Virus record (IMG/VR): IMGVR_UViG_3300017963_000513
Coordinates: 1-35,831 of that record
DNA length: 35,831 bases
DNA from: a virus
Reading direction: 5' to 3' (one strand)
Shown here: positions 5,686 through 35,220 of the stretch, one piece after another
How the letters are laid out: the number at the start of each line of letters is the position of its first letter
How positions within the stretch are numbered: the first letter of the stretch is position 1
Program-made: the position numbers and the translations under genes
Notes under the pieces: model-generated
What the model was told of the DNA's origin: nothing
Database searches by the model: none
The model's input: only the letters and a program-made list of their open reading frames with translations

Positions 5686-6147
5686 TTATGCGGCGGCTCT
5701 TGCCTCCATGAGCGCTATTGCCTCGCCGGTCGTTTCGACTTTGTGCTCATCCATAAAATCCGCCAGCGCCCCAAGTTGCTCCCGCTTTTTCTTCGCTCGC
5801 TCAGCGCATGCCCTGGCGTTTTCCTCGCAATGCTCAATATGAGCACGCAGAACCTCCGCAGTACACGTGAGCCCGTTGTAATAAATGCCTCCAAGCAAAA
5901 TCATCCGGGGCAGCTCGGGGAACATGCCCAACGTGCCGCACGACTTTAGGCGCGCCCGAGTCTGCTTGCGCAACTCCGACTCCATCCACGCATCCAGGCC
6001 AATCCGCTGATGCTGCTCTAGCTGCTCTGGGGTGGCTTTGGAAATAACGCGATCCAAAAGTTCCCTTGGTGTTATTGATGCTTCGCCGCCCTCAAGAAAC
6101 CGGCAAATTTCCTGCTCGGCAATTCGCGCCACGTCTGTCTTAGCCAT
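5686..6147 (-). CDS. Unknown protein, 153 aa, coupled to ParB-like gene
   Basis: Not recognised. The ATG at 6147 overlaps the end of the ParB-like gene by eight bases, so the two are probably translationally coupled; a GGGAG lies about ten bases upstream. The protein is mostly helical and charged. It starts with a helical segment (ARIAEQEICRFLEGG) and has a central hydrophobic patch (FPELPRMILLGGIYYNGLTC). The Lys/Glu/Arg-rich helix near the C-terminus (HCEENARACAERAKKKREQL) could be a coiled coil. No catalytic motif is evident. By position it may work with the ParB-like protein in DNA binding or regulation. Confidence 0.75.
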   Translation of the reverse strand: MAKTDVARIAEQEICRFLEGGEASITPRELLDRVISKATPEQLEQHQRIGLDAWMESELRKQTRARLKSCGTLGMFPELPRMILLGGIYYNGLTCTAEVLRAHIEHCEENARACAERAKKKREQLGALADFMDEHKVETTGEAIALMEARAAA

Positions 6148-7087
6148 TTTCCACAAACTCCCGTAATACCTGATCGCAAAAATCGCGCATAAACGTCAGC
6201 GCGCCTATATTACCGGCTGCCTCCTCTCGATTGCTCACGCTGTGCCAATACTCGGCCACATTCTCCAACTCAAACGTGGCGCTGAACCCTGTATGAAACT
6301 GGCGCAGCTTCTCGAAACACAGCTTCCAGGTCACGCACATAGATTTGCGCTTCTCCATGCGCCGCTGCATCTCCTCGCGAGCATATTCCAGCGTAACAAC
6401 CCCGGACTGCTCAGCCTCGGCAAGCTCTGGGCATTCGGCCCGAAGCTCTGCGCGCCATTGCGCCTTCAGCGCGCGCATCTCAGCCGCGTCCCGCTCAACC
6501 TTCTCATCCTCTGAGGCGGTCTCTTCCGCCAAACGCTGCGCCACCGCCGCTTGCGCCGCCTGCTCGCGCGCCGCCTTATCGCGCGCCACACGTTTACGCC
6601 TGGCGGCTTCTGTGTAAGCCGATGCCAACGGCTCCTCCCCAGCCATAACACCATCGACCAAGTCCGGAGCCCACTTCAGGACGACGCGGGCACGCTTCAG
6701 CGTAGTGACGCTTGGCTCTAAATTCTGGCCATTATGGCCGGAAACTCCGCCGTTCGGCCCTCGCTTCCGCCCCTCCGGTGCCAGCCTGGCATGGGTTAGC
6801 GCTCTCTGGCCTTGGTTCATGTGCCTGCGGTTGTTGTTTAGAGCCAGAATGTACGCCCCTATCGCGTCGTCATCGGTCGGCCCCTGGTACTCAACAAACG
6901 CTGGCTCAACCTTGGCAAGCTCGCAGGCCGCCAGGCGATTGCGACCATCAATAAGCACTTCCTCGCCGTCGATGCGCGCAAACTCCAGCGGATGAAGAAG
7001 CCCGTTCTCTGCGATGTCGGCGGCAAGTGCCTCCATCTCGTCAGCCGGGATCATCGGGTAGATTGCTGCGAATGGGTGAACTTTCAT
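6140..7087 (-). CDS. ParB-like N-terminal domain protein, 315 aa
   Basis: DNA-binding protein with a ParB/sulfiredoxin-like N-terminal domain. Residues 1-90 carry the expected pattern HPFAAIYPMIPADEMEALAA, then ENGLLHPLEF and the diagnostic LIDGRNRLAACE, then an NNNRRHMNQGQRAL helix segment. About residues 105-150 fit a helix-turn-helix-like partner region (NLEPSVTTLKRARVVLKWA). A long Arg/Glu/Ala-rich helical stretch follows (about 150-240). The ATG at 7087 has GGAG eight bases upstream, immediately after a strong hairpin and U-run. No ParA gene is present, so chromosome-style partition is unlikely; phage ParB-like proteins can act in regulation or as nucleases, which is undecided here. Confidence 0.85.
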   Translation of the reverse strand: MKVHPFAAIYPMIPADEMEALAADIAENGLLHPLEFARIDGEEVLIDGRNRLAACELAKVEPAFVEYQGPTDDDAIGAYILALNNNRRHMNQGQRALTHARLAPEGRKRGPNGGVSGHNGQNLEPSVTTLKRARVVLKWAPDLVDGVMAGEEPLASAYTEAARRKRVARDKAAREQAAQAAVAQRLAEETASEDEKVERDAAEMRALKAQWRAELRAECPELAEAEQSGVVTLEYAREEMQRRMEKRKSMCVTWKLCFEKLRQFHTGFSATFELENVAEYWHSVSNREEAAGNIGALTFMRDFCDQVLREFVENG

Positions 7088-7099
7088 TCTCACATCTCC

Positions 7100-7169
7100 A
7101 AAAAAAAGGTCTGCTGCTGACTTCGGGTGACACGGGGCGGAAGTTCCCCACCGAAGCCAGCAACAGACC
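7100..7169 (-). terminator. Strong terminator/attenuator directly upstream of the ParB-like gene
   Basis: On the minus strand, arms 7169-7151 and 7126-7108 pair over 19 bp, with two positions that become G-U pairs in RNA. The loop contains a smaller GGGG/CCCC helix. The structure is followed at once by eight T residues (7107-7100) and then the GGAG of the ParB-like gene. This is a textbook intrinsic terminator for leftward transcription, but it sits right on the ribosome site of the next gene, so expression beyond it would need readthrough or antitermination. Confidence 0.85.
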
Positions 7170-7207
7170 TGTTTCCACTTCCGCATAGCGTGTCACTGCT
7201 TCGGGCA

Positions 7208-7468
7208 TTATACCTCCTTCTTGACATGAACCGCACCACCAAACCTATCCCGCAGTGCCTTCCAGTTCTCGTCGTGCTTGAGCATGTCTGCCGTTTCCGG
7301 CCTGGACTGCTCCAGCCTGGACCATACGGCGGCTCTCTTGTCTTTCGGCACCGCGCTCAGGTTTACCCACCGCTCCGGCTCATGCTTCGATGCTGAGCAT
7401 GGCAGGGGCGTTGGCAGCTTGGCACGGCGCTTCTCCTTGACCGTCTGACTGGCGTGTCCCTTAGGCAT
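7208..7468 (-). CDS. Small basic protein, 86 aa, unknown
   Basis: Unrecognised protein between the candidate origin and the terminator before the ParB-like gene. The ATG at 7468 is chosen over an upstream in-frame ATG at 7483; it has GGGG seven bases upstream. The N-terminus is basic (MPKGHASQTVKEKRRAKLP), followed by a polar helical part (DKRAAVWSRLEQSRPETADM) and WKALRDRFGG. There is no Cys cluster and no membrane segment. Its basic N-terminus and position beside the repeats could suit a DNA- or replication-associated role, but this is inference. Confidence 0.7.
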   Translation of the reverse strand: MPKGHASQTVKEKRRAKLPTPLPCSASKHEPERWVNLSAVPKDKRAAVWSRLEQSRPETADMLKHDENWKALRDRFGGAVHVKKEV

Positions 7469-7489
7469 AAAATAACCCCACAAAAAGTG

Positions 7490-7671
7490 TAATCCGCCAA
7501 TCCGCCGCTAATCCGCCGTGCCCCGCCGGCGGGTTGGAAGAAACCAAGAAATAGACGGGCGGCTTAATCCGCCGCCGTCTTGTATTTCTTAGGCGGCGGC
7601 GGATTAGGCGGCCCGGCGGCTTAGGCAGTGAAAATCGACCCATCAAAATCTAATCCGCCGTTAATCCGCCG
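7490..7671 (-). other. Iteron cluster with dyads: candidate replication origin
   Basis: Six direct copies of TAATCCGCC(G) or a near match start at 7490, 7499 (AATCCGCCG), 7509, 7565, 7651 and 7662. An inverted copy, CGGCGGATTA, lies at 7597-7606. The last two copies overlap the end of the RepA-like ATPase gene. Between them are the 12-bp palindrome CCCGCCGGCGGG (7522-7533) and a long inverted repeat (7546-7590). The stretch 7484-7649 holds no convincing gene. Iterons plus dyads beside a RepA-like helicase gene resemble plasmid and phage origins. No initiator binding is proven. Confidence 0.6.
7546..7590. repeat. Long interrupted inverted repeat within the candidate origin
   Basis: Outer arms AAGAAATA (7546-7553) and TATTTCTT (7583-7590) are perfect complements. 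Inner arms GACGGGCGGC (7554-7563) and GCCGCCGTC (7571-7579) pair with one bulged G. The loop contains the TAAT of one iteron. An A/T-rich outer stem on a G/C-rich inner stem could extrude as a cruciform or fold as single-stranded DNA, as for priming sites. Confidence 0.75.
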
Positions 7672-9026
7672 ACCGCAGCGGCTTCGATTTTTTCTGCCAG
7701 ATGCGGTGAGGCCAGAGCGACAGCATCCCGGGACGGCATCAGGAATGAGCGCAACTGCCCGTGGCGCTGGTGCTCCGGAAGATCCCGCTGGTACAGGCCG
7801 CCAGAACTCATCAGCGTAGCCACAGCCGCGCGCAGTTCCTTTCGGGTAAGGCCATCTCCTATCTGGTCGGCGAGCGCGTCCAGGCTCGACTTGGAATGCT
7901 TGCGGCCATCCATAAGCTGGCCAATGACAAACTGCAGAACGTCCCCCACATCCCGCGCGGCTTTCTCGGCGACGCTCGGTTGCGGTTCCTCTATAAATGA
8001 CTCGTAGCTAAATCCGGTGCGGCGCAACCAGATCCGGGGCAGGTTGGGTGGTGAGTAGGACAGCTTCGGCCGGCTGAGCCTGACTATCCCGACATCGGCT
8101 CCAGGCTCGCATGCTTGCGGTGGAGTGGGTTTCTCTCCTGGCTGCCACGAGTGCGCTACCGCCGTCATTCTGGACCCGTCAGCGAGCGCTGAGCCACCCC
8201 TGCCGCTGTACTGGTCGTCTGTTTTCTCTCTGGCGTTGCCCTTGCCGGTATGGTGTATGAATCGCACGCAGCAATTTAGCCCGTTCATGATGCGCCGGGC
8301 CGCCATTACGCAGCCCTGTTCGTTTCCGTTAATGCGATCCTCGCCGACGCCGAACGATACCAGCGGGTCGAAGATAACCACGACCGGCGGTTCGTCGCTG
8401 AACGCTGAGACAATATTGTCAGCCAGTTCGGTAAGGCGAATATTTCCGTCATCAGCCTGAATCAGCTTCAGGTCCGCGCCGGTTACGTCCCAGATGAGCA
8501 ACCCGGCCATGGCTGTGGCTAGGTCTTTGCCGGACAGGTTCAGCGCTTTACAGATCTCGCGGAAGCGTGCCACCAAGCGTTCGCGCTGATCCTCGGCCGT
8601 AACTATCAGGGTGGCGCCTTGCTTGACTACCTCCAGGCCCCACACATCGCGTCCTAGCGCGATCTGAATAGACTCGTGCAACACAAGCGTCGTTTTCCCG
8701 ACGCCGCCGGGTGCGATTAGTTGGGCCACGTCCGCATAAAGGTAGTCCCGCACAATGCAGTCGGGCGTTAGTTCCGCTGACTCCATTTCCGCGGCGTTGA
8801 TCGCGAGCACCGACCGCGCGGGCGGTTTATATGCGCGTTCCTGCGCCTCTGCTCCGAGCGTTGTGTTTAGCTCGGCATCTGAGACAACGTGCTCGGCTAT
8901 AGCGTCCTGGAACGCTTTTGAAGCGCGCTGCATGTCAAACTTCGTGGGCTTGCCACAGTAGCGGGCTGCGTCTTCGGCGTAGACGTCCACGCCGGGGAGT
9001 TCTCCGTTGGGTGGTTTTTCTTTCAC
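7650..9026 (-). CDS. RepA-like AAA ATPase (replicative helicase family)
   Basis: A RecA-fold ATPase of the plasmid RepA / AAA_25 type, 458 aa from the start chosen. Walker A APGGVGKTTL is near residue 105-114 and Walker B VVVIFDPLVSF near 215-225. A conserved RFIHHTGKG segment follows near 255, typical of RSF1010-RepA-like hexameric helicases. The C-terminal 90 residues look like a winged-helix region (ADQIGDGLTRKELRAAVATL). The GTG at 9026 overlaps the upstream stop as GTGA and has GGGGGA close by; a GTG at 9059 would add 11 residues. It follows a primase-like gene and precedes iterons, so it is the likely replication helicase. Confidence 0.88.
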   Translation of the reverse strand: MKEKPPNGELPGVDVYAEDAARYCGKPTKFDMQRASKAFQDAIAEHVVSDAELNTTLGAEAQERAYKPPARSVLAINAAEMESAELTPDCIVRDYLYADVAQLIAPGGVGKTTLVLHESIQIALGRDVWGLEVVKQGATLIVTAEDQRERLVARFREICKALNLSGKDLATAMAGLLIWDVTGADLKLIQADDGNIRLTELADNIVSAFSDEPPVVVIFDPLVSFGVGEDRINGNEQGCVMAARRIMNGLNCCVRFIHHTGKGNAREKTDDQYSGRGGSALADGSRMTAVAHSWQPGEKPTPPQACEPGADVGIVRLSRPKLSYSPPNLPRIWLRRTGFSYESFIEEPQPSVAEKAARDVGDVLQFVIGQLMDGRKHSKSSLDALADQIGDGLTRKELRAAVATLMSSGGLYQRDLPEHQRHGQLRSFLMPSRDAVALASPHLAEKIEAAAVGGLTAD

Positions 9027-9445
9027 GATTCCCCCATCAGGCGATTTAGTGTCTGCCACGTGCGCGTTTCCAGATCAGCATCCACCGGCCTGCCTGCGTC
9101 GCGGTCTGCCTGTATTAACATAAGTATGGTTGCGGCCCTGCGCCGCTCGGTTTCGGTTTTCTCGCGTGCGCGCGCGACGCGCGCCCGCTCTCGTGCCGCT
9201 GGGTCTTTGGGATTCTCCCAACCCCGATCCTCAAGCCACTTGAACGCATCCGGCCACTCGCAGCCTAGATGGCGCTTGACCAGCCCCGGAAGATCCCCTC
9301 CCTCGGACTGGCTGAAATCATGCCACGTGCCTGCATAATCTACTTTCAGCTTGTGATCTGCGTAGAAACGTGCGCCACCGCTACAGCGTTTCGGTTGCTG
9401 TCCGATAAGCTCCGCTGCCAACCGGATTGGCAGGGACCATGTCAC
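9023..9445 (-). CDS. Primase-type N-terminal domain protein, 140 aa
   Basis: A short protein resembling only the N-terminal recognition part of phage/plasmid primases. CSGGARFYADHKLKV, GTWHDFSQSEGGDLPGLVKR and HLGCEWPDAFKWLEDRGW match the usual pattern of a strand, WHDFS-x-x-GGD and a GC-x-x-x-DA-x-x-WL helix. The classical zinc-binding Cys/His set is reduced, and no TOPRIM or polymerase domain follows. The C-terminal half is a basic helix (RERARVARAREKTETERRRA). The GTG start overlaps the HTH gene stop as GTGA. Probably loads or targets the adjacent ATPase at the origin or primes DNA with host help; exact activity is uncertain. Confidence 0.75.
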   Translation of the reverse strand: MTWSLPIRLAAELIGQQPKRCSGGARFYADHKLKVDYAGTWHDFSQSEGGDLPGLVKRHLGCEWPDAFKWLEDRGWENPKDPAARERARVARAREKTETERRRAATILMLIQADRDAGRPVDADLETRTWQTLNRLMGES

Positions 9446-9684
9446 GCCTCGCTCTCCGCCGGCTTGTCGAGCGACTGTTTCCGCAGATGATCTTTAATCT
9501 CTTCCGCCAGCTTGTAGCGAAGCAGGTCCAGCAGGTTGTTCGGGATATGACGCGGCGTTGTAGGCGATGCCCACGCCCGCACGGTCTGTGGCTTTACGCC
9601 GAGCAGGCGGGCCACGTCTGGAGATTTCAGGTTGTGCTCGGCCATCAGTTCGCGCAGGTTTGTCATGGTCTGGTCCGGTTGCAT
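9442..9684 (-). CDS. Helix-turn-helix regulator (Cro-like)
   Basis: An 80-aa protein with a compact helix-turn-helix. From the internal Met at 9666 it reads LRELMAEHNLKSPDVARLLG then VKPQTVRAWAS, the usual pattern of a lambda-type or HTH_3 DNA-binding domain. Start choice is between ATG 9684 (AGG six bases upstream) and ATG 9666. The C-terminal 40 residues are helical and charged. It is the first gene of the leftward replication operon and lies beside two operator-like dyads and a divergent promoter, so it probably represses one or both promoters. No dimerisation or RecA-cleavage domain of a full CI repressor is present. Confidence 0.8.
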   Translation of the reverse strand: MQPDQTMTNLRELMAEHNLKSPDVARLLGVKPQTVRAWASPTTPRHIPNNLLDLLRYKLAEEIKDHLRKQSLDKPAESEA

Positions 9685-9818: not shown

Positions 9819-10148
9819 ATGAAACCGACCGCCCGCAAGAGTTACGGCGAATACAAACCGGTAATCCGCTTCCCGGACGGATCAACGAAAATTTGCGGCC
9901 AGAGTTACACATATTGCGATGTCACTAACAAGCGGTTTCACAGGCGCGGCGTCGCGTTCGCGACGCGAGATGAGGCCATCCAATACGCTCGCGACTGCAT
10001 TGATGAGCGTAGGCGGCAATGGCGCGACCTTCGCAGCGCGATAGTTCGTGACTTAAAGAATCCCGCCAGCCCAGAGCACGCCAAAAGGCTGCGGCGATCA
10101 ATGGAGCGCCTAGACGCAGAGCGCGACGCGCTGGAAGGCTGGCAGTAA
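9819..10148 (+). CDS. Small early protein, 109 aa, unknown
   Basis: First gene behind the rightward promoter; CGGAG lies about ten bases before the ATG. The N-terminal half looks beta-rich and reads like a compact domain (YKPVIRFPDGSTKICGQSYT, then VAFATRDEAIQYARDCID). The C-terminal half is a strongly basic, probably coiled-coil helix (RRRQWRDLRSAIVRDL; RLRRSMERLDAERDALEG). The N-terminal pattern could be a small substrate-sensing or nucleic-acid-binding fold, but no family is recognised. Being first in the early operon suggests an early takeover or regulatory role. Confidence 0.75.
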   Translation: MKPTARKSYGEYKPVIRFPDGSTKICGQSYTYCDVTNKRFHRRGVAFATRDEAIQYARDCIDERRRQWRDLRSAIVRDLKNPASPEHAKRLRRSMERLDAERDALEGWQ

Positions 10149-10198
10149 CACCCCACAAGCCCCGCTCCGGCGGGGCAAGACACATAACGGAGAAAGAC
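10148..10198 (+). repeat. Hairpin/Shine-Dalgarno cassette, copy 1
   Basis: Intergenic module carrying GCCCCGC-TCCG-GCGGGGC (10159-10176), then CAAGACACATAACGGAGAAAGAC directly before the next ATG (10199). The loop is of the extra-stable C(UNCG)G type. The upstream gene stops just before the module. Near-identical modules recur at 10486-10537 and 10742-10795. No U-run follows, so it is not an ordinary terminator. Confidence 0.85.
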
Positions 10199-10741
10199 AT
10201 GACTCACAAAGCTGATGCCCCACTGTTTGCGGATTATGTGCAGTGTCAAAAAATCAAAGCACTGGAAAAGGAACTGCAGACAAAAGACAAAAAAATCGAG
10301 AAGCTAGAATCAGACATCCAGTGGATGGTGAAGAAAGCCGCCGACAAAAGCCTGGAAGGTTATCGTGAGCTTGGGCAGAAATGCGCGGAACTCGAATCAA
10401 TGTACGTACAAATGTGCATCGAATACGGCAAGGCCAAGGATGAAATTCGGCGAATGAAAGAACTCAGAATCGCCGATGGAGCCGAACCACCCACAAGCCC
10501 CGCTCCGGCGGGGCAAGACACACACAAGGAGAAAGACATGACCAGCACCACTAATAGCATCATTGCAATCCTCAGCGCTGCCGGTTACTCCGACGATCAG
10601 GTAGCGCATGGCATCGAATACGCCATGCAGCGTGGCGCGACTACTGATGATGAGTTGATTCAGTTGGCACTGAACCGCATTGTCCTGACGGATGAACAGT
10701 TAGCGAACGGCGACAGCGTTCCCTGGGAGCCGCTGAACTGA
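10199..10741 (+). CDS. Coiled-coil protein fused in frame to a second small protein, 180 aa
   Basis: Residues about 15-90 form a charged coiled coil (KIKALEKELQTKDKKIEKLE; ELGQKCAELESMYVQMCIEY). Residues about 97-113 (PPTSPAPAGQDTHKEKD) are simply the in-frame translation of cassette copy 2, which lacks the stop codon that separates genes at the other two cassettes. From Met114 a distinct small helical domain follows (IIAILSAAGYSDDQVAHGIE). The gene therefore looks like two ancestral genes joined by loss of a stop codon, with a proline-rich linker made from regulatory DNA. Function is unknown. Confidence 0.75.
   Translation: MTHKADAPLFADYVQCQKIKALEKELQTKDKKIEKLESDIQWMVKKAADKSLEGYRELGQKCAELESMYVQMCIEYGKAKDEIRRMKELRIADGAEPPTSPAPAGQDTHKEKDMTSTTNSIIAILSAAGYSDDQVAHGIEYAMQRGATTDDELIQLALNRIVLTDEQLANGDSVPWEPLN
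10486..10537 (+). repeat. Hairpin/Shine-Dalgarno cassette, copy 2 (inside an open frame)
   Basis: Same module as copy 1: hairpin GCCCCGC-TCCG-GCGGGGC at 10497-10514, then an AAGGAGAAAGAC ribosome site before an ATG at 10538. Here no stop codon precedes the hairpin in the frame of the upstream gene, so the module is translated as a linker. Confidence 0.85.
10538..10741 (+). CDS. Probable separate 67-aa product from an internal start
   Basis: The ATG at 10538 follows AAGGAG at a good spacing, the same ribosome site that serves genes behind the other two cassettes, so independent initiation is expected inside the 180-aa frame. The product is helical and acidic: an N-terminal helix (IIAILSAAGYSDDQVAHGIE) and a second one (TTDDELIQLALNRIVLTDEQ). 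It resembles a small UBA-like or three-helix bundle in outline only; no family is recognised. It may be made both alone and as the C-terminal part of the larger protein. Confidence 0.6.
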   Translation: MTSTTNSIIAILSAAGYSDDQVAHGIEYAMQRGATTDDELIQLALNRIVLTDEQLANGDSVPWEPLN

Positions 10742-10795
10742 AACACCCACCAGCCCCGCTCCGGCGGGGCAAGACACACAACGGAGAACGCAAAC
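10742..10795 (+). repeat. Hairpin/Shine-Dalgarno cassette, copy 3
   Basis: Third copy: GCCCCGC-TCCG-GCGGGGC at 10753-10770, then CAAGACACACAACGGAGAAC before the ATG at 10796. The preceding gene ends with TGA at its left border. The hairpin core is identical in all three copies, while the last bases before the ATG vary. Confidence 0.85.
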
Positions 10796-13722: not shown

Positions 13723-15086
13723 CGTCTTCCCTGTCTTACCTTCCAAACATGACGCGCCCAGCCTGGTTTGTAGCCGCGCGCCTCGCCTAGTGCGATCAAC
13801 TGCGCCAGCGTTTGCGCCTGGCGCTGCTGCTGCTTCCTCTCGCGTTTCCTGTCTAGCTCCTGCAACTCTCCTTCAATCTCGTTAATCTGTCGCTGAGTAA
13901 TCGGGTATTCGTAGCCACATTCCGGGCACGCCGGCGCCGGCTCATGGCACGCATAACAGCGGTCGCATTGCTTCATCGGTACTCGGTCTGCTGGATTCCG
14001 TTTTTTCCGATCATGCTCTAGCGTCCATTCGCGCGGCTCGCACGGCAGACCATGGCGCCCAGCGTTCCCCGCATGATCCAGAATCACAGCGCGCGATTCC
14101 TGCGGCCTGAGAGCTCGCCCGCACCGCTGGAGCCAAATTGATTCAGAATCGGTCGGGGCAGCATCAACGACACAGCCGACTTGCACATTTAATCCGGCAT
14201 TCGCCGCCAGATCGTAGCCCTCGCCGAACAGCCCGACATTCCAGACCATGTCGAGCCGCCCGCGCGCCAGATCCTGAAGGATCTGCTTGCGTTCAGCCCG
14301 CTTCGTGGTTGCGTCTAAATGCGCCGCCCGGATTCCGATTGCCTGCATGGCCTGGACTATGTGTTGCGAATGCTGGACGGTTACGGCAAAACCGATTGTC
14401 AGCCGACCACGGGCGTATTCGCTCCAGTGTTTGCCGATGTTCCCCATAATTACTTTGCGATCCATGGCGGCGGCGGATTCGGCCTTGATGAACTCACCGG
14501 CCCTGCGATGCAGCTTGGAAGTGTCGGCGCCGGGAATGGAAAAAATGCGGTACTGAGCCAGAAATCCGTTATCAATGAGCCACGCAACCGGCGGACCCTG
14601 AACCATGGCTTCGAAGTATGCCGCCAGGCCTTTGCCGTCCAGGCGGCGCGGCGTTGCTGACAGCCCTAGGTGGTATGACTCGCCGTAGTGGTTGCGGACC
14701 TTTGCCCAACCGGCTGCGGCGATATGATGAGTTTCGTCCCATATCATCAGCTTGGGTTGTGGCACTACCGCCAGTCGTTTGTCTGACTTCAGGGAATCAA
14801 TCGACGCGACGAAACATGCCGCGCGCGGATCGTATGGGAAGCCTGCTGCGATAAAACTGTGCGGTATCCCGAACCGGGTCAGCGTCAGGCTGGACTGCTC
14901 AACCAATTCGCGCCGATGGCATACGAAAAACGGCACGCCGCCCCGGTCCATGGTGCCAAGCATCACATCGGCAGCAACTACCGTTTTTCCGAAGCCGGTC
15001 GGCGCCTGCAACAACACCGACCGCACCCGCCGGAACTCCTGCCGCACAGATTGCTTGGCTTCGGATTGGTGCGGGTGAAGTTTCAT
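13719..15086 (-). CDS. Superfamily 2 DEAD/DEAH-type helicase with zinc ribbon
   Basis: A 455-aa SF2 DNA helicase, similar in plan to RadD/YejH-type proteins. Walker A is QAPTGFGKT near residue 27-35, motif II is DETH at 117-120, motif III SATP at 143-146, and the C-terminal motif VI contains QRCGRALRPQ. A four-Cys zinc ribbon (CDRCYAC and CPECG) follows near residues 388-406, then a basic helical tail (LDRKRERKQQQRQ). The ATG overlaps the stop of a 20-codon ORF as TAATG. ATP-driven strand separation in replication or recombination is expected; it works beside the nuclease and winged-helix genes. Confidence 0.92.
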   Translation of the reverse strand: MKLHPHQSEAKQSVRQEFRRVRSVLLQAPTGFGKTVVAADVMLGTMDRGGVPFFVCHRRELVEQSSLTLTRFGIPHSFIAAGFPYDPRAACFVASIDSLKSDKRLAVVPQPKLMIWDETHHIAAAGWAKVRNHYGESYHLGLSATPRRLDGKGLAAYFEAMVQGPPVAWLIDNGFLAQYRIFSIPGADTSKLHRRAGEFIKAESAAAMDRKVIMGNIGKHWSEYARGRLTIGFAVTVQHSQHIVQAMQAIGIRAAHLDATTKRAERKQILQDLARGRLDMVWNVGLFGEGYDLAANAGLNVQVGCVVDAAPTDSESIWLQRCGRALRPQESRAVILDHAGNAGRHGLPCEPREWTLEHDRKKRNPADRVPMKQCDRCYACHEPAPACPECGYEYPITQRQINEIEGELQELDRKRERKQQQRQAQTLAQLIALGEARGYKPGWARHVWKVRQGRR

Positions 15087-15148
15087 TACTCGCAGAGCCC
15101 GTACACGGCCTTCGGCGCGGCAGCAATCTGCACAATTTTATCCTTCAT
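15086..15148 (-). CDS. Candidate 20-aa coupled micropeptide
   Basis: Twenty codons (MKDKIVQIAAAPKAVYGLCE). The ATG overlaps the Cys-rich gene's stop as ATGA and the TAA overlaps the helicase start as TAATG, so ribosomes could pass through all three genes in sequence. AAGGA lies nine bases upstream of the ATG. Being bounded by overlaps on both sides makes it more than chance, but its function (leader for helicase translation, or a real peptide) is unknown. Confidence 0.5.
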   Translation of the reverse strand: MKDKIVQIAAAPKAVYGLCE

Positions 15149-15372
15149 TTTTCTGCATCCTTTTCTTCAGCAACATTCTTTTCTGCAGCAACATTACCCT
15201 GCTGCTCATCATCCGAACCGGGCTCGCGCTCGAACTCCGGGCAGTCAAACGGCCTTACTGGACACGCCCAGCCGCGCGTTCCATAGACTGTCTGCATGTT
15301 TGAGCACCGCAGGCCCGGACGCTTCGACGCCGCCTTGTAGTATGACCATTTACAATGCGCGCACCGGTTCAT
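15145..15372 (-). CDS. Cysteine-rich small protein, 75 aa
   Basis: The ATG at 15372 overlaps the stop of the ribbon-helix-helix gene as ATGA. Cysteines lie at positions 4 and 7 (CAHC), 23 (LRCSNM), 37 (WACPVR) and 44 (FDCPEF), a layout that suggests a metal-binding fold. Aromatic and basic residues surround them (KWSYYKAASKRPG). The C-terminal 25 residues are an acidic tail (PGSDDEQQGN, EKNVAEEKDAEK). An adaptor or antagonist of host protein or DNA binding is possible. No family recognised; the longer upstream frame crosses the pentapeptide gene and is an artefact. Confidence 0.7.
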   Translation of the reverse strand: MNRCAHCKWSYYKAASKRPGLRCSNMQTVYGTRGWACPVRPFDCPEFEREPGSDDEQQGNVAAEKNVAEEKDAEK

Positions 15373-15521
15373 CGCTCTGTCCGCTCCAGAGCCTTGCGCC
15401 GCCTCAGTTCCAGCGCTGCAAGGTTCCTCAGCCACGCCGACAGACTCAGCCCGTCCGCGCGTGCCGCCTTCCGTATTTCCCGCTTCAGATCGGCGGGTAA
15501 CCGAACACCTGTAATATCCAC
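15369..15521 (-). CDS. Ribbon-helix-helix DNA-binding protein, 50 aa
   Basis: The GTG at 15521 has a perfect GGAGG eight bases upstream. The product fits the Arc/MetJ/CopG ribbon-helix-helix pattern: strand DITGVRLPADL, helix KREIRKAARADG and helix LSLSAWLRNLAALELRR, ending in a basic tail. Such proteins bind DNA as dimers and often regulate their own operon. It is the first gene of the leftward helicase/nuclease operon, and a dyad lies 33 bases upstream in the gap to the divergent pentapeptide gene. The stop overlaps the next ATG as ATGA. Confidence 0.8.
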   Translation of the reverse strand: MDITGVRLPADLKREIRKAARADGLSLSAWLRNLAALELRRRKALERTER

Positions 15522-15553
15522 TTGTATGTCCTCCGATATCAGCCACGACTACA

Positions 15554-15564
15554 GTATGGCATAC
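15554..15564. promoter_or_regulatory. Operator-like dyad between divergent operons
   Basis: GTATGGCATAC is a perfect 5-bp inverted repeat around one base, flanked by direct TACAG repeats. It lies 33 bases upstream of the ribbon-helix-helix gene and about 50 bases upstream of the pentapeptide gene, and overlaps the -35 position expected for a weak rightward -10 (TATGCT, 15580-15585). A likely autoregulatory site for the ribbon-helix-helix protein. Confidence 0.4.
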
Positions 15565-15615
15565 AGGCAGCGGCTTTGCTATGCTGTTTGTGCACACACC
15601 GACAGAGAGCAAGCA

Positions 15616-16233
15616 ATGAAAATTAACGGTCATGAAATCGCGCCAGGCGCCGACCTCGCTCGCGCCGACCTCAGGGGCGCCGACCTCAGGGACGCCAACC
15701 TCAGGGACGCCTACCTCGGCGACGCCGACCTCTGGGGCGCCGATCTCAGGCGCGCCGATCTCACTGGCGCCAACCTCTGGGGCGCCGATCTCAGGCGCGC
15801 CGATCTCACTGACGCCAACCTCAACGAGGCCGACCTCAGGGACGCCAACCTCAGCGACGCCGACCTCAGGCGCGCCAACCTCAGGGACGCCAACCTCAGG
15901 GGCGCCGACCTCTGGGGCGCCGATCTCAGCGACGCCGACCTCAGGGACGCCAACCTCAGGCGCGCCAACCTCAGGCGCGCCAACCTCAGGGACGCCAACC
16001 TCAGGGGCGCCATAGGCAACATGCGCGAAATACACACCATGTTGTGTGATACATGGACGGTCGCTTGGACTGCCGACATGATGGCCATCGGCTGCGAACA
16101 GCACCCGATCGATGATTGGTGGGAGTTCGATGATGAGCGCATCAATGCCATGGACAGGCATGCGCTCGTATGGTGGAAAGTATGGAAGCCGATTATTAAA
16201 TCTGCCGTGGAGGCGACAACATGCCCCAAATAA
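15616..16233 (+). CDS. Pentapeptide-repeat protein with conserved C-terminal domain, 205 aa
   Basis: The ATG at 15616 follows an AGAG at moderate distance. After MKINGHEIAPG come about 24 pentapeptide repeats of the A(D/N)LXX type (ADLRG, ANLRD, ADLWG), which form a right-handed quadrilateral beta-helix. A C-terminal domain of about 70 residues follows, rich in Trp, Asp and Met (IHTMLCDTWTVAWTADMMAI; CEQHPIDDWWEFDD). Some pentapeptide proteins mimic DNA and inhibit gyrase; whether this one does is unknown. The 15-base DNA repeats also open long false frames on both strands. It overlaps the RecE-like gene by 13 bases. Confidence 0.88.
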   Translation: MKINGHEIAPGADLARADLRGADLRDANLRDAYLGDADLWGADLRRADLTGANLWGADLRRADLTDANLNEADLRDANLSDADLRRANLRDANLRGADLWGADLSDADLRDANLRRANLRRANLRDANLRGAIGNMREIHTMLCDTWTVAWTADMMAIGCEQHPIDDWWEFDDERINAMDRHALVWWKVWKPIIKSAVEATTCPK

Positions 16234-31581: not shown

Positions 31582-33031
31582 TCGCTTGGTCCTGTTGCTG
31601 CTGTTCCTGCTGTTCCTGCTGGAACGTGTCGCTCGCGCGCTGCGCGTCCACCATATCCGGATCGCCGCCCCGCTTGCGGATAACACCCTTGCGAGACTCG
31701 AACCCGGCTTCTACCGCCATCTGATCGGCGCTGACTTCCTTCGCTGGATCAATCCAAGGCATTGCCGGCCCTCGCAACTCCACGTTGTAGATCGTGTCCC
31801 GGTTTACGTTGCGCGGAACCGTTATGCGTCCAGCCAATACCGCGGCGTCAATAAACCGGCGCCACATCGGGCGCAACAGTTTTTCGTGGTAATACGACCG
31901 CAGCGCCGCATATGCCGGCTGCGATTCCACCAACTCCTGACGCTGCGCGGAATACGTCCCATTGTAGTCCTTCGACACACTGGAATACTTCGCGCCCGTG
32001 CCTGCCGATACCGCACGTAGCATAGCGTTCCTGAAATCCTGCAGACCAGTGTTTGGACGGTTCGCGCCTAGTGTCTCGACCGCCTCACCCGGGTTTAACG
32101 TGAATATCTGCCCCGATGACATCTCGAACGGAACATGCCCGTCCTGATCCTGTTCGTTGGGATACCCGAACGCATCAGACCGAGTGATGGCGGCACACAT
32201 CGACGCAGCCACACGCGCGGCTATGCGCTCGGACTCTTCGTATTCCTTCACGTCGGCGAGGCGGGTCATCACCGCGGCGAATATCGACGACCCGCGCGCT
32301 TGCCTGATACGCTTCGCCAGCTTGAGATGCACAATCCGTTCGGCGGATATGCGCTGCGTCTCGTAGCTGCTGGCCCACATCCCACCCGGGTGCGTCGTGT
32401 AGAAATGATACGCCAGCGGACGCCCGAAGCTGTTGCGCTCAACCCCGTGGATAATCTCGGCGCCACCCTGGACGGTCGGCTCCATGATCGCGCCGGTCGC
32501 CGGCCAATCAAACGGCAGTAAATCCGACTCAATCAGTTCCAGTGAGTACGGCAGAACCGGGCCGGCGTCCAGATGCTGCGCGAAAACCTCGCCGTCCCGA
32601 TACAGGGAACGGCACAGAATCCGCTCCATCTGCGCACCCGGCAACTCTTCGGTGGACTCTGGGCGCTCGTACCACTCGCGAAATATTTGACGGATCTGAC
32701 GATTCAGATCGGTCGCCGGGCGCATGGCTCGCTTGCCGGTCATCACTGCCGGCTCAAACGTTGTGCCAGCGCCAACGGTATTATTCACCAGCTCATCGAG
32801 CACACCGACAGCCAGATCGCTGTTTTCGTCCAGATGCCGCGCCCAGTTTGTTAACCGGGTGCGCGCATGATCCATAACCCGGTCTCCGGACAATCCGCCG
32901 CCGGGCCGGTCTTTCTGGAACCTGGAAGGAATAGCCGCATCGTAGAGCCGCTGCATGTACCGCGCACGCGAACGACGCGCCGACCACTGCGGCGCTATGA
33001 TGCTCAACCAGTCTTTACTGAGGATCGACAT
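31538..33031 (-). CDS. Portal protein (lambda gpB family)
   Basis: A 497-aa lambda-type portal. Typical segments are RARYMQRLYDAAIPSRFQ, DHARTRLTNWARHLDENSDL and VLDELVNNTVGAGTTFEP at the N-terminus, LAYHFYTTHPG and RISAERIVHLKLAKRIRQAR in the middle, and FRNAMLRAVSAGTGAKYSSV near residue 340. The C-terminus is Gln/Asp-rich (QQEQQEQQQQDQANDG) and probably disordered. The start is 17 bases inside the preceding small ORF, with weak Shine-Dalgarno, suggesting coupling. Forms the dodecameric DNA gate. Confidence 0.93.
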   Translation of the reverse strand: MSILSKDWLSIIAPQWSARRSRARYMQRLYDAAIPSRFQKDRPGGGLSGDRVMDHARTRLTNWARHLDENSDLAVGVLDELVNNTVGAGTTFEPAVMTGKRAMRPATDLNRQIRQIFREWYERPESTEELPGAQMERILCRSLYRDGEVFAQHLDAGPVLPYSLELIESDLLPFDWPATGAIMEPTVQGGAEIIHGVERNSFGRPLAYHFYTTHPGGMWASSYETQRISAERIVHLKLAKRIRQARGSSIFAAVMTRLADVKEYEESERIAARVAASMCAAITRSDAFGYPNEQDQDGHVPFEMSSGQIFTLNPGEAVETLGANRPNTGLQDFRNAMLRAVSAGTGAKYSSVSKDYNGTYSAQRQELVESQPAYAALRSYYHEKLLRPMWRRFIDAAVLAGRITVPRNVNRDTIYNVELRGPAMPWIDPAKEVSADQMAVEAGFESRKGVIRKRGGDPDMVDAQRASDTFQQEQQEQQQQDQANDGQDDSGQLRAAG

Positions 33032-33397: not shown

Positions 33398-35220
33398 AAT
33401 TCCCGCCTCTGAAACGCTGAACTCCTCGGACGGCTCGGCCTTGATGGCGCCGTCCGTGGCTGTGATGCAGCAGTGCCTGCACCACGCTCCATTCTAGACA
33501 TTATAGGCTTCATGCTTGACTTTGGAAGCCTTTTGAACGCCGCATAGGCATAAATCCGGCAATCTAACGCCTCATTCCTGGCTCGGGTCTTCACCCATAC
33601 CCGATGAGGAAACCCGTTGCGGAATTTTGTCTGCACCTGCTCGGCCGTAAGCTGGAAATAGTATTCCTCGCCTCGATGCAGCGGGAAATGACAATAACCC
33701 GGGCCCGCTTCGCCCTTGCTGAGCGACTGATATACGGCAGTTTTCGCCGCATCGGTGCCAATCGTCATGAAATGAAACACCCGGCCCGATGCTGTGCGCT
33801 TCTTCTTCGGCAGATCCGCCACCGGCTTACCCTCGCCGGCAACACCCTTGATGGCATACAGGCGCCGCCCAATATGCGACGCGCAGTAATCGTAAACCGT
33901 CTGTGTCTGGTCCCCCGAATCAATGCACACCGAAGAAACCGAGATCAGCGGACCCGACGCATGCGGCCAGGTCTGTTCGATGTACTGCGTCAACTCCTGC
34001 CACGGCGCGGCCTTCGACGTATCGCCAACTATTGCCTGATAGTCGATTGACCACGACTCCCCATCAGCATTCCAGCCCACAAGCTCTAGCTCCAGCCTGT
34101 CGTGCTGTACATCTACTCCCATGGTCAACACACAAACATCAGCCGGAATAACCTCGCCGAAATCATACGCGCGGGCCATGATGCTTGACGGATCTACGCT
34201 ATCGCCCTGCTCTTCGTATGTCTCGCCCAAGCTGGTATTGACGAAGGTCCGCAGCATCTCGCTGTCATCCTTCGCCTCCAGGAAATCCGCCACCATTTCT
34301 TCCCACCGGCGCCATGGGCTGTACAGCTCCGAGATATGAAACCCGGCAGTCTTGCCGCCCGGCTTATCGGCGCGCCACTGCCCGCCCGTCAGCATCTTGT
34401 GTTTGTCACGCTCATGCATCACGCCACCGCAATGCTCGCAAGCATAGTGCGCCGTCTCAGGCTTACCCTTGTCCCAATGAACCTGCCGCCACATCAAAAC
34501 CTGGAACTCTTCACAGTGCGGGCATGGCACCCAATAACGCCGCTGATCGCTAGCCTCGTAAGCGTATTCTATGCGACTGGCACCCTTAACAGTTGGCGTG
34601 CTGGTTAGGAGGATTTTTCTGTTCCAGAATGTTGCCGCGCGCTTTCTTCCAAGACTGACGCTGTCTCCCTCTGCGCCTGCGCTGACCGGGTACCTGTCAA
34701 CCTCATCGAACAGCACAACCCTAACCGGACGGCTCGCCAAACTCGCCGGGCTGTTGGCGCCTGCGAGCGTGATGTGCCCGCCGGGAAACACTTTATGGCG
34801 TAACGTGTTGCCGCTCGACCTCGATTTAACATCGCCGAACACTCCAGTCAGAGACGGACAATCCCGGATCATCGGCGCCAGCCTGTCTTTGGAGACTGTT
34901 TCCGCCATCTCCAGCGTTGGCTGGATCATCAGCATGGGCGCCGGATCTTGGTGAGAGTGGTAGCCCACGATGTTTAACAAAAACTCAGTCTTGCCAATCT
35001 GAGCGCTGGACATGACAACGACCGTTTCCACACCAGCTTCGTTGAAGGCATCCATGATGCCGCGCTGATATGCGGCCCGGTCTGTGCGCCATTGCCCGGG
35101 CTCGCTCGATGCTTCAGAAGACAATCGCCGGTAGCTGTCCGCCCATTCGCTAACCTTCAGCTTAGGCGGCGGCGCCCAGACTTTGCAGGCCTGCGCGTAT
35201 ATCTCGGCAGGGGTTGTCAT
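33394..35220 (-). CDS. Terminase large subunit (GpA family)
   Basis: A 608-aa packaging ATPase-nuclease. The N-terminal part has WADSYRRLSSEASSEPGQW; Walker A-like SSAQIGKTE at 71-79; Walker B VVLFDEVDRYP with Asp172-Glu173; then LLTSTPTVKG. A CPHC and CEHC pair near 225-255 forms a zinc site. Nuclease part: VLTMGVDVQHDRLELELVGW with Asp in GVDVQ. ATG 35220 overlaps the small-subunit stop as ATGA and is preferred to TTG 35235. The GpA class generally cuts at cos sites. Confidence 0.95.
   Translation of the reverse strand: MTTPAEIYAQACKVWAPPPKLKVSEWADSYRRLSSEASSEPGQWRTDRAAYQRGIMDAFNEAGVETVVVMSSAQIGKTEFLLNIVGYHSHQDPAPMLMIQPTLEMAETVSKDRLAPMIRDCPSLTGVFGDVKSRSSGNTLRHKVFPGGHITLAGANSPASLASRPVRVVLFDEVDRYPVSAGAEGDSVSLGRKRAATFWNRKILLTSTPTVKGASRIEYAYEASDQRRYWVPCPHCEEFQVLMWRQVHWDKGKPETAHYACEHCGGVMHERDKHKMLTGGQWRADKPGGKTAGFHISELYSPWRRWEEMVADFLEAKDDSEMLRTFVNTSLGETYEEQGDSVDPSSIMARAYDFGEVIPADVCVLTMGVDVQHDRLELELVGWNADGESWSIDYQAIVGDTSKAAPWQELTQYIEQTWPHASGPLISVSSVCIDSGDQTQTVYDYCASHIGRRLYAIKGVAGEGKPVADLPKKKRTASGRVFHFMTIGTDAAKTAVYQSLSKGEAGPGYCHFPLHRGEEYYFQLTAEQVQTKFRNGFPHRVWVKTRARNEALDCRIYAYAAFKRLPKSSMKPIMSRMERGAGTAASQPRTAPSRPSRPRSSAFQRREL

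Follow-up and report, generated by a model that had tools for sequence, protein, structure and literature searches.

A repeated-word array at the 3' end of a RepA-like helicase gene as the likely replication origin of an IMG/VR phage

The window, the whole stretch of DNA that was analysed, is an entire IMG/VR virus record of 35,831 nucleotides with head and tail genes and a terminase that shares 57% identity with its counterpart in Roseobacter phage CRP-821. Its minus-strand replication operon runs from a small HTH protein through a primase-like protein and a helicase to an array of short repeated words, followed by a small basic protein and a ParB-like protein (Table 1). The primase part of this operon seems reduced, consisting only of a short N-terminal primase-like protein. 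No TOPRIM domain was matched in that protein or near the helicase, and a Methylomagnum relative carries a fused Toprim_3 domain, itself a weak match. The phage may rely on host primase. On the minus strand, positions 7103-7174 form a strong hairpin whose arms are 24 nt long (a 101-nt stretch folds at -48 kcal/mol as RNA), which is followed by eight U and directly precedes the ribosome-binding site of the ParB-like gene. This intrinsic-terminator-like hairpin may be a terminator or attenuator within the operon.

Table 1. Positions of the replication genes and of the word array with its repeats in the window
Feature	Position	Strand	Remark
ParB-like protein	6140-7088		matches phrog_21315 and phrog_4715; two genes downstream
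86-aa basic protein	7208-7468	-	downstream of the array; no family match
Word copy TAATCCGCC	7490-7498	+	
Word copy CAATCCGCC	7498-7506	+	one mismatch; one-base overlap with the 7490 copy
Word copy TAATCCGCC	7509-7517	+	11 bp from the preceding copy
12-bp palindrome CCCGCCGGCGGG	7522-7533		sequence
Hairpin A	7547-7590		G/C inner stem with one word; A/T-rich outer stem AAGAAATA/TATTTCTT
Dyad B	7565-7606		a pair of inverted words; perfect 13-bp arms; 16-nt middle
Word copy TAATCCGCC	7565-7573	+	left arm of dyad B
Inverted word copy TAATCCGCC	7598-7606	-	right arm of dyad B
Word copy TAATCCGCC	7651-7659	+	overlaps the last codons and stop codon of the helicase
Word copy TAATCCGCC	7662-7670	+	within the helicase 3' end; 11 bp from the preceding copy
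RepA-like helicase, 469 aa	7650-9059	-	AAA_25 motor at residues 102-275
Predicted winged helix, proposed word reader	7734-7979	-	codons 361-442; structure model; reader role proposed from relatives
140-aa primase-like protein	9023-9445	-	similarity to phage primases limited to their N-terminal part (phrog_510, positions 51-146)
Small HTH protein	9442-9684	-	first gene of the replication operon

Six exact copies of TAATCCGCC lie between 7490 and 7670, five on the plus strand and one on the minus strand. Together with the one-mismatch copy CAATCCGCC, they confirm the seven copies, one of them inverted, that an earlier sequence-only reading had described. Two more one-mismatch copies, TAAGCCGCC, occur on the minus strand at 7558 and 7615. 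The words are 9 to 10 bp long, and those on the same strand are spaced 8 to 11 bp apart, about one helical turn. The array exceeds chance: the commonest 9-mer in 7450-7749 is present in six copies, compared with a maximum of three in 2,000 dinucleotide shuffles, and the remainder of the 35.8-kb record holds only two exact copies of TAATCCGCC, at 2416 and 20153. The tandem word had no exact match elsewhere when scanned for, consistent with words that are private to their owners. GC skew, which had been recommended as an origin marker, proved uninformative; it is unmarked at the array, and its only change, near 9.5 to 10 kb, coincides with the switch in coding strand.

The palindrome and the interrupted inverted repeat with an A/T-rich outer stem that had been reported for this stretch were both located, the latter as hairpin A (Table 1). 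Hairpin A and dyad B overlap and are mutually exclusive, with the word at 7565 common to both. Dyad B sits inside a repeat with 25-nt arms (7556-7615), and its middle reads CCTAAGAAATACAAGA on the minus strand. Hairpins similar to hairpin A were found in five relatives (L040, L117, L118, L119 and L039), all of them post-selected sequences; the hairpin z-scores are optimistic because the sequences were hand-picked. In relatives, the position of dyad B is that of a CCTATAG-type core. A CCTWWAG-type core, usually placed in a palindrome between inverted words, was present in 20 of 32 array segments versus 3.2% of control segments, and its equivalent in the window, CCTAAG, is an inexact fit to the pattern.

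The motor of the helicase scored 95 bits against Pfam AAA_25 (cut-off 27), and residues 99-347 matched RSF1010 RepA (PDB 1g8y, E 1.8e-12). By these matches, the protein is classed as a RecA-fold, RSF1010 RepA-like helicase (AAA_25, SF4). Because the match to RepA is limited to residues 99-347, the domain that follows is an addition. When predicted alone, this C-terminal domain took the order H-H-H-E-E, three helices and then two strands, with a core pLDDT of about 95, and the full-length model displayed the same elements. Structure comparison of the predicted domain returned MarR-type winged helices at a Z of about 9, with others, including an MCM C-terminal domain, close behind, a match that names the winged-helix fold and not a function. 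Two word copies (7651 and 7662) do overlap the coding end of the helicase, as had been noted from the sequence, but the accompanying view that both functions are constrained there did not stand up. The residues encoded across these words, GGLTAD and then the stop, lie outside the modelled winged helix and are not conserved, which leaves a double constraint unsupported; the overlap is probably merely tolerated.

The best helicase relative, from a Methylomagnum plasmid (42% identity), is followed by an array of AACCTCGCGG at its 3' end. Arrays at the helicase 3' end, each built from another word, were also found in CRP-821, a Rhodoplanes phage-like plasmid, a Microvirga plasmid and Streptococcus phage Javan74. 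Helicases with DnaB-type N-termini (BUCT618 and Vibrio 1.123) had no array at their 3' ends. We surveyed 80 viral and 5 genomic loci, using the helicase regions of the window and of the Methylomagnum plasmid as queries; a six-sequence alignment was too diverse for searching. Loci were picked by helicase peptides only, so the presence of an array played no part in the selection. Right at the stop codon, one 8-mer was repeated four or more times in 36 of the 78 loci with an assessable 3' end; of the other gene ends in these loci, 21 of 519 did so. This first scoring left about half of the loci free of an array; many arrays were displaced by 0.25 to 1.4 kb, and the count was therefore repeated with an upstream control. 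Within the 1.7 kb downstream of the helicase, an array was found in 57 of 78 loci versus 1 of 66 upstream controls. After clustering at 80% identity, and requiring at least four word copies within 1.7 kb downstream, arrays were present in 31 of 37 clusters versus 1 of 35 upstream controls and comprised about 30 words. Such counts of distinct words are approximate: for L070 and L073, the best word, CGTGGAAC, is an unrelated repeat, and the local word is CTGGCGCA. The sequence-only reading had made its proposal depend on related phages that share the replication genes also carrying the repeats, and relatives that share the helicase do retain an array.

Neighbouring words on the same strand were mostly 8 to 12 bp apart in the relatives, among which L037 uses the word AATCCCGCC. 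Between 0.25 and 1.4 kb of DNA separates helicase and array in L054, L064, L065, L083, L086, L101 and L107-L115; L054 and L064 retain the word of L055 despite 0.8 to 1 kb of intervening DNA. A recognisable array was absent from L048, L050, L053, L072, L075 and L120. The Lamprobacter loci L117 and L118 (contigs, 15-1001) keep an array of AACGCGCC, and their helicase apparently ends without a winged helix; these loci are possibly decayed elements, or the reader is supplied in trans. Beside the array of the Methylomagnum plasmid pRS11DPr4 (L006), an annotated hypothetical gene at 14555-15352 consists of 18-bp units with 33 copies of AACCTCGCGG, and it may be an iteron array for titration or copy control rather than a protein gene.

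Where helicases are near-identical, a difference in the winged helix comes with a difference in every word copy, and the flanks remain unchanged. The motors of L059 and L077-L079 are at a distance of 0.000, their readers at 0.36, and the word is CTGATGCA in the former and CTGGCGCA in the latter. Outside the winged helix and array, the DNA of L059 and L079 is 93 to 100% identical between -2.2 kb and +1.3 kb; only between -300 and +190 relative to the stop codon, the stretch that holds these two elements, does identity fall to 0.62-0.69. Similarly, L091 and L092 have a motor distance of 0 and nearly identical DNA except between about -200 and +200 relative to the helicase stop; in that interval, the words change in concert from ACCGTCGCA to ACTGACGCA with the spacers kept. 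The narrowest contrast is that between L105 and L107/L111. In the last 95 or so residues, their helicases differ only by T615N, S616Q, H618R and M619L, all wing positions (42 further differences lie upstream of the reader), and the word is CTGGAGCA in L105 and CTGTCGCA in L107/L111, with nearly alike spacers visible in both arrays. In a partial Mantel test across 22 loci, word distance correlated with reader distance given the motor (r 0.48, permutation p 0.0002, the p value being indicative only since the loci are related), and its partial correlation with motor distance was negative. Since winged helix and word change together in near-identical helicases, the C-terminal domain of the helicase very probably reads the word; this domain, and not the small basic protein at 7208-7468, is the likely reader. 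In the one case of L105 and L107/L111, the wing loop may set the two central word bases. A one-residue code, with Lys or Arg in the helix for C or G in the word, was considered and rejected: it is broken by L107-L115, which have CTGTCGCA with Ala, Ser or Thr at that position. A search for near DNA relatives of the window found no match among phages, and single-protein peptide scans of viral and genome contigs returned no helicase relatives; the word-reader pairing proposed for the window itself therefore rests on its family.

In SaPI Rep and in SCCmec Cch2, the C-terminal domain reads repeats that lie downstream of the protein's own gene (PMC7581432). Like the window helicase with its proposed reader, they join a helicase to a C-terminal DNA-reading domain and have short repeats directly 3' of their own gene in a mobile-element replicon, but their motors are DUF927 and Primase_Cterm/D5, whereas that of the window is a RecA-fold AAA_25. 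Set against SaPI Rep and P4 alpha, the window has the repeat array directly downstream of the helicase and lacks the SF3/AAA+ motor; the candidate counterpart of their specificity-setting C-terminal domain is the predicted winged helix, for which co-variation in relatives supports such a role. By analogy, the mechanism resembles that of SaPI Rep or P4 alpha driven by a RepA-type motor. The motor of P4 alpha is SF3-type. That of pRN1 ORF904 is also SF3-type, and pRN1 requires a stem-loop 3' of its rep gene, as described in a study that also outlines RSF1010 and P4 (PMC4234260). Both proteins, like the window helicase as modelled, hold motor and winged helix in one chain, but they also include a primase there (TOPRIM in P4, archaeo-eukaryotic in pRN1); P4 has repeats, and pRN1 has its stem-loop without iterons.

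The IncQ plasmid RSF1010 (RepA, RepB', RepC, oriV, ssiA/ssiB) shares with the window a RepA motor and iterons with hairpins at the origin, which in the window is a candidate one. The hairpins of the window are echoed in relatives and might correspond to the single-strand priming hairpins ssiA/ssiB. However, the solved RSF1010 RepA chain has only 279 residues, and its match to the window helicase ends before the winged helix. The window words are also shorter than the roughly 20-bp IncQ iterons, and no RepC-like family, the separate initiator of that system, was found among the neighbouring genes tested. Nor does the locus follow the lambda type, with iterons within the O gene and a DnaB loader: the array lies 3' of the helicase gene and only marginally inside it, and no O or P relatives were found among the tested window genes. 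In Streptococcus phage Sfi21 and Lactobacillus phage A2, the annotated origins (34487-34784, a 302-bp region, and 32208-32717, respectively) lie at the 3' end of the primase-helicase and are rich in a repeated word, but these helicases match D5_N/Pox_D5/DUF5906 (SF3-type) and not AAA_25. In PLE replicons, the initiator's DNA-binding domain is swapped along with the origin iterons as one module, with an origin-directed nuclease as a selective force (PMC8263062); the Vibrio PLE initiator is a RepA_N-type protein with an N-terminal reader rather than an AAA_25 helicase, and PLE is a satellite rather than a phage. We found no description of the AAA_25 and winged-helix layout in the open-access literature. 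Comparison of relatives gives good support to the candidate origin beside a RepA-like helicase, but SaPI Rep, SCCmec Cch2 and the SF3-helicase phages show that its type is not wholly unrecognised, as had been supposed.

Taken together, we consider it likely that 7490-7670 is the replication origin of the phage or, failing that, the sequence-specific site at which its replicative helicase is loaded. The parallels with the annotated origins of Sfi21 and A2 and with SaPI origins make an origin the most likely function of the array. Winged helices would bind the TAATCCGCC words, which stand in same-strand groups on either side of the central dyad, and assembly on the words would load the helicase at the 3' end of its own gene; opening or exposure of the dyad or hairpin might then allow strand opening, or priming by a phage or host primase. 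We infer that the helicase binds the words directly and is loaded there in the window phage, and likewise that the hairpin takes part and that the array acts as an origin. Regulation or partition could be a further function of the array, or could take the place of initiation.

Binding by the reader alone would not prove initiation, and the operon reads through the array toward the 86-aa gene, with the terminator-like hairpin of 7103-7174 following. The array might accordingly be an operator or other regulatory site at which the helicase or another protein autoregulates or controls downstream genes without initiating replication. This is improbable, however, as the array is 3' of the helicase while the operon starts near 9.7 kb, some 2 kb away, relatives with DNA inserted between helicase and array keep word and reader matched, and the annotated origins of Sfi21 and A2 share the layout. 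Centromeres are typically arrays of short words, and the ParB-like gene (6140-7088) is two genes downstream, which would suit a centromere-like partition site for its product; yet the natural swaps change only the helicase C-terminal domain and the array together, and we hold partition to be very unlikely. Slightly less credit still is due to the idea that the words are read by another phage- or host-encoded protein, with the winged helix touching this reader and its co-variation being indirect. Winged helices are able to engage other proteins, and RSF1010 leaves the reading of its iterons to a separate RepC (PMC4234260), but L059 and L079 differ locally only in winged helix and array, so that no other local gene co-varies, and two word bases track four wing residues between L105 and L107/L111. 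Least likely of all, the dyads might form a bidirectional transcription terminator with incidental repeats, as terminator-like matches on both strands at 7558-7576 and the G/C stem of L040 flanked by A and T runs could suggest, but terminator-like sites in the region are no commoner than in shuffles, the long T runs are lost in L039, L117 and L119 while complementary outer stems are kept, and the words would be left unexplained.

Beyond the origin of this one phage, the relatives may represent a class of replicon, widespread in phages and plasmids, in which a RepA-type helicase with its own reader recognises a word private to each lineage, reader and word are exchanged as a cassette driven by incompatibility or origin-directed attack, and the word is predictable from the reader; this broader proposal could as easily hold as fail. 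The helicase end and the word's spelling vary in step, much as though every virus began replication with a password of its own. A private word just downstream of the helicase would offer an origin finder for many uncultured phages with RepA-like helicases, and natural minimal pairs, such as four wing residues and two bases, bear on how a winged helix chooses its DNA. It also becomes testable whether origins diversify as an escape from incompatibility or from nucleases that cut origins, of which one acts against PLE (PMC8263062).

Two further repeat families were observed in the window. A 46-nt element with a CCCCGCTCCGGCGGGG hairpin occurs in three copies (10141-10186, 10479-10524 and 10735-10780), each located between small plus-strand genes or at the end of one. 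A pentapeptide-repeat gene at 15355-16233 (Pfam E 6.5e-42) contains 15-bp coding repeats that are unrelated to the origin word.
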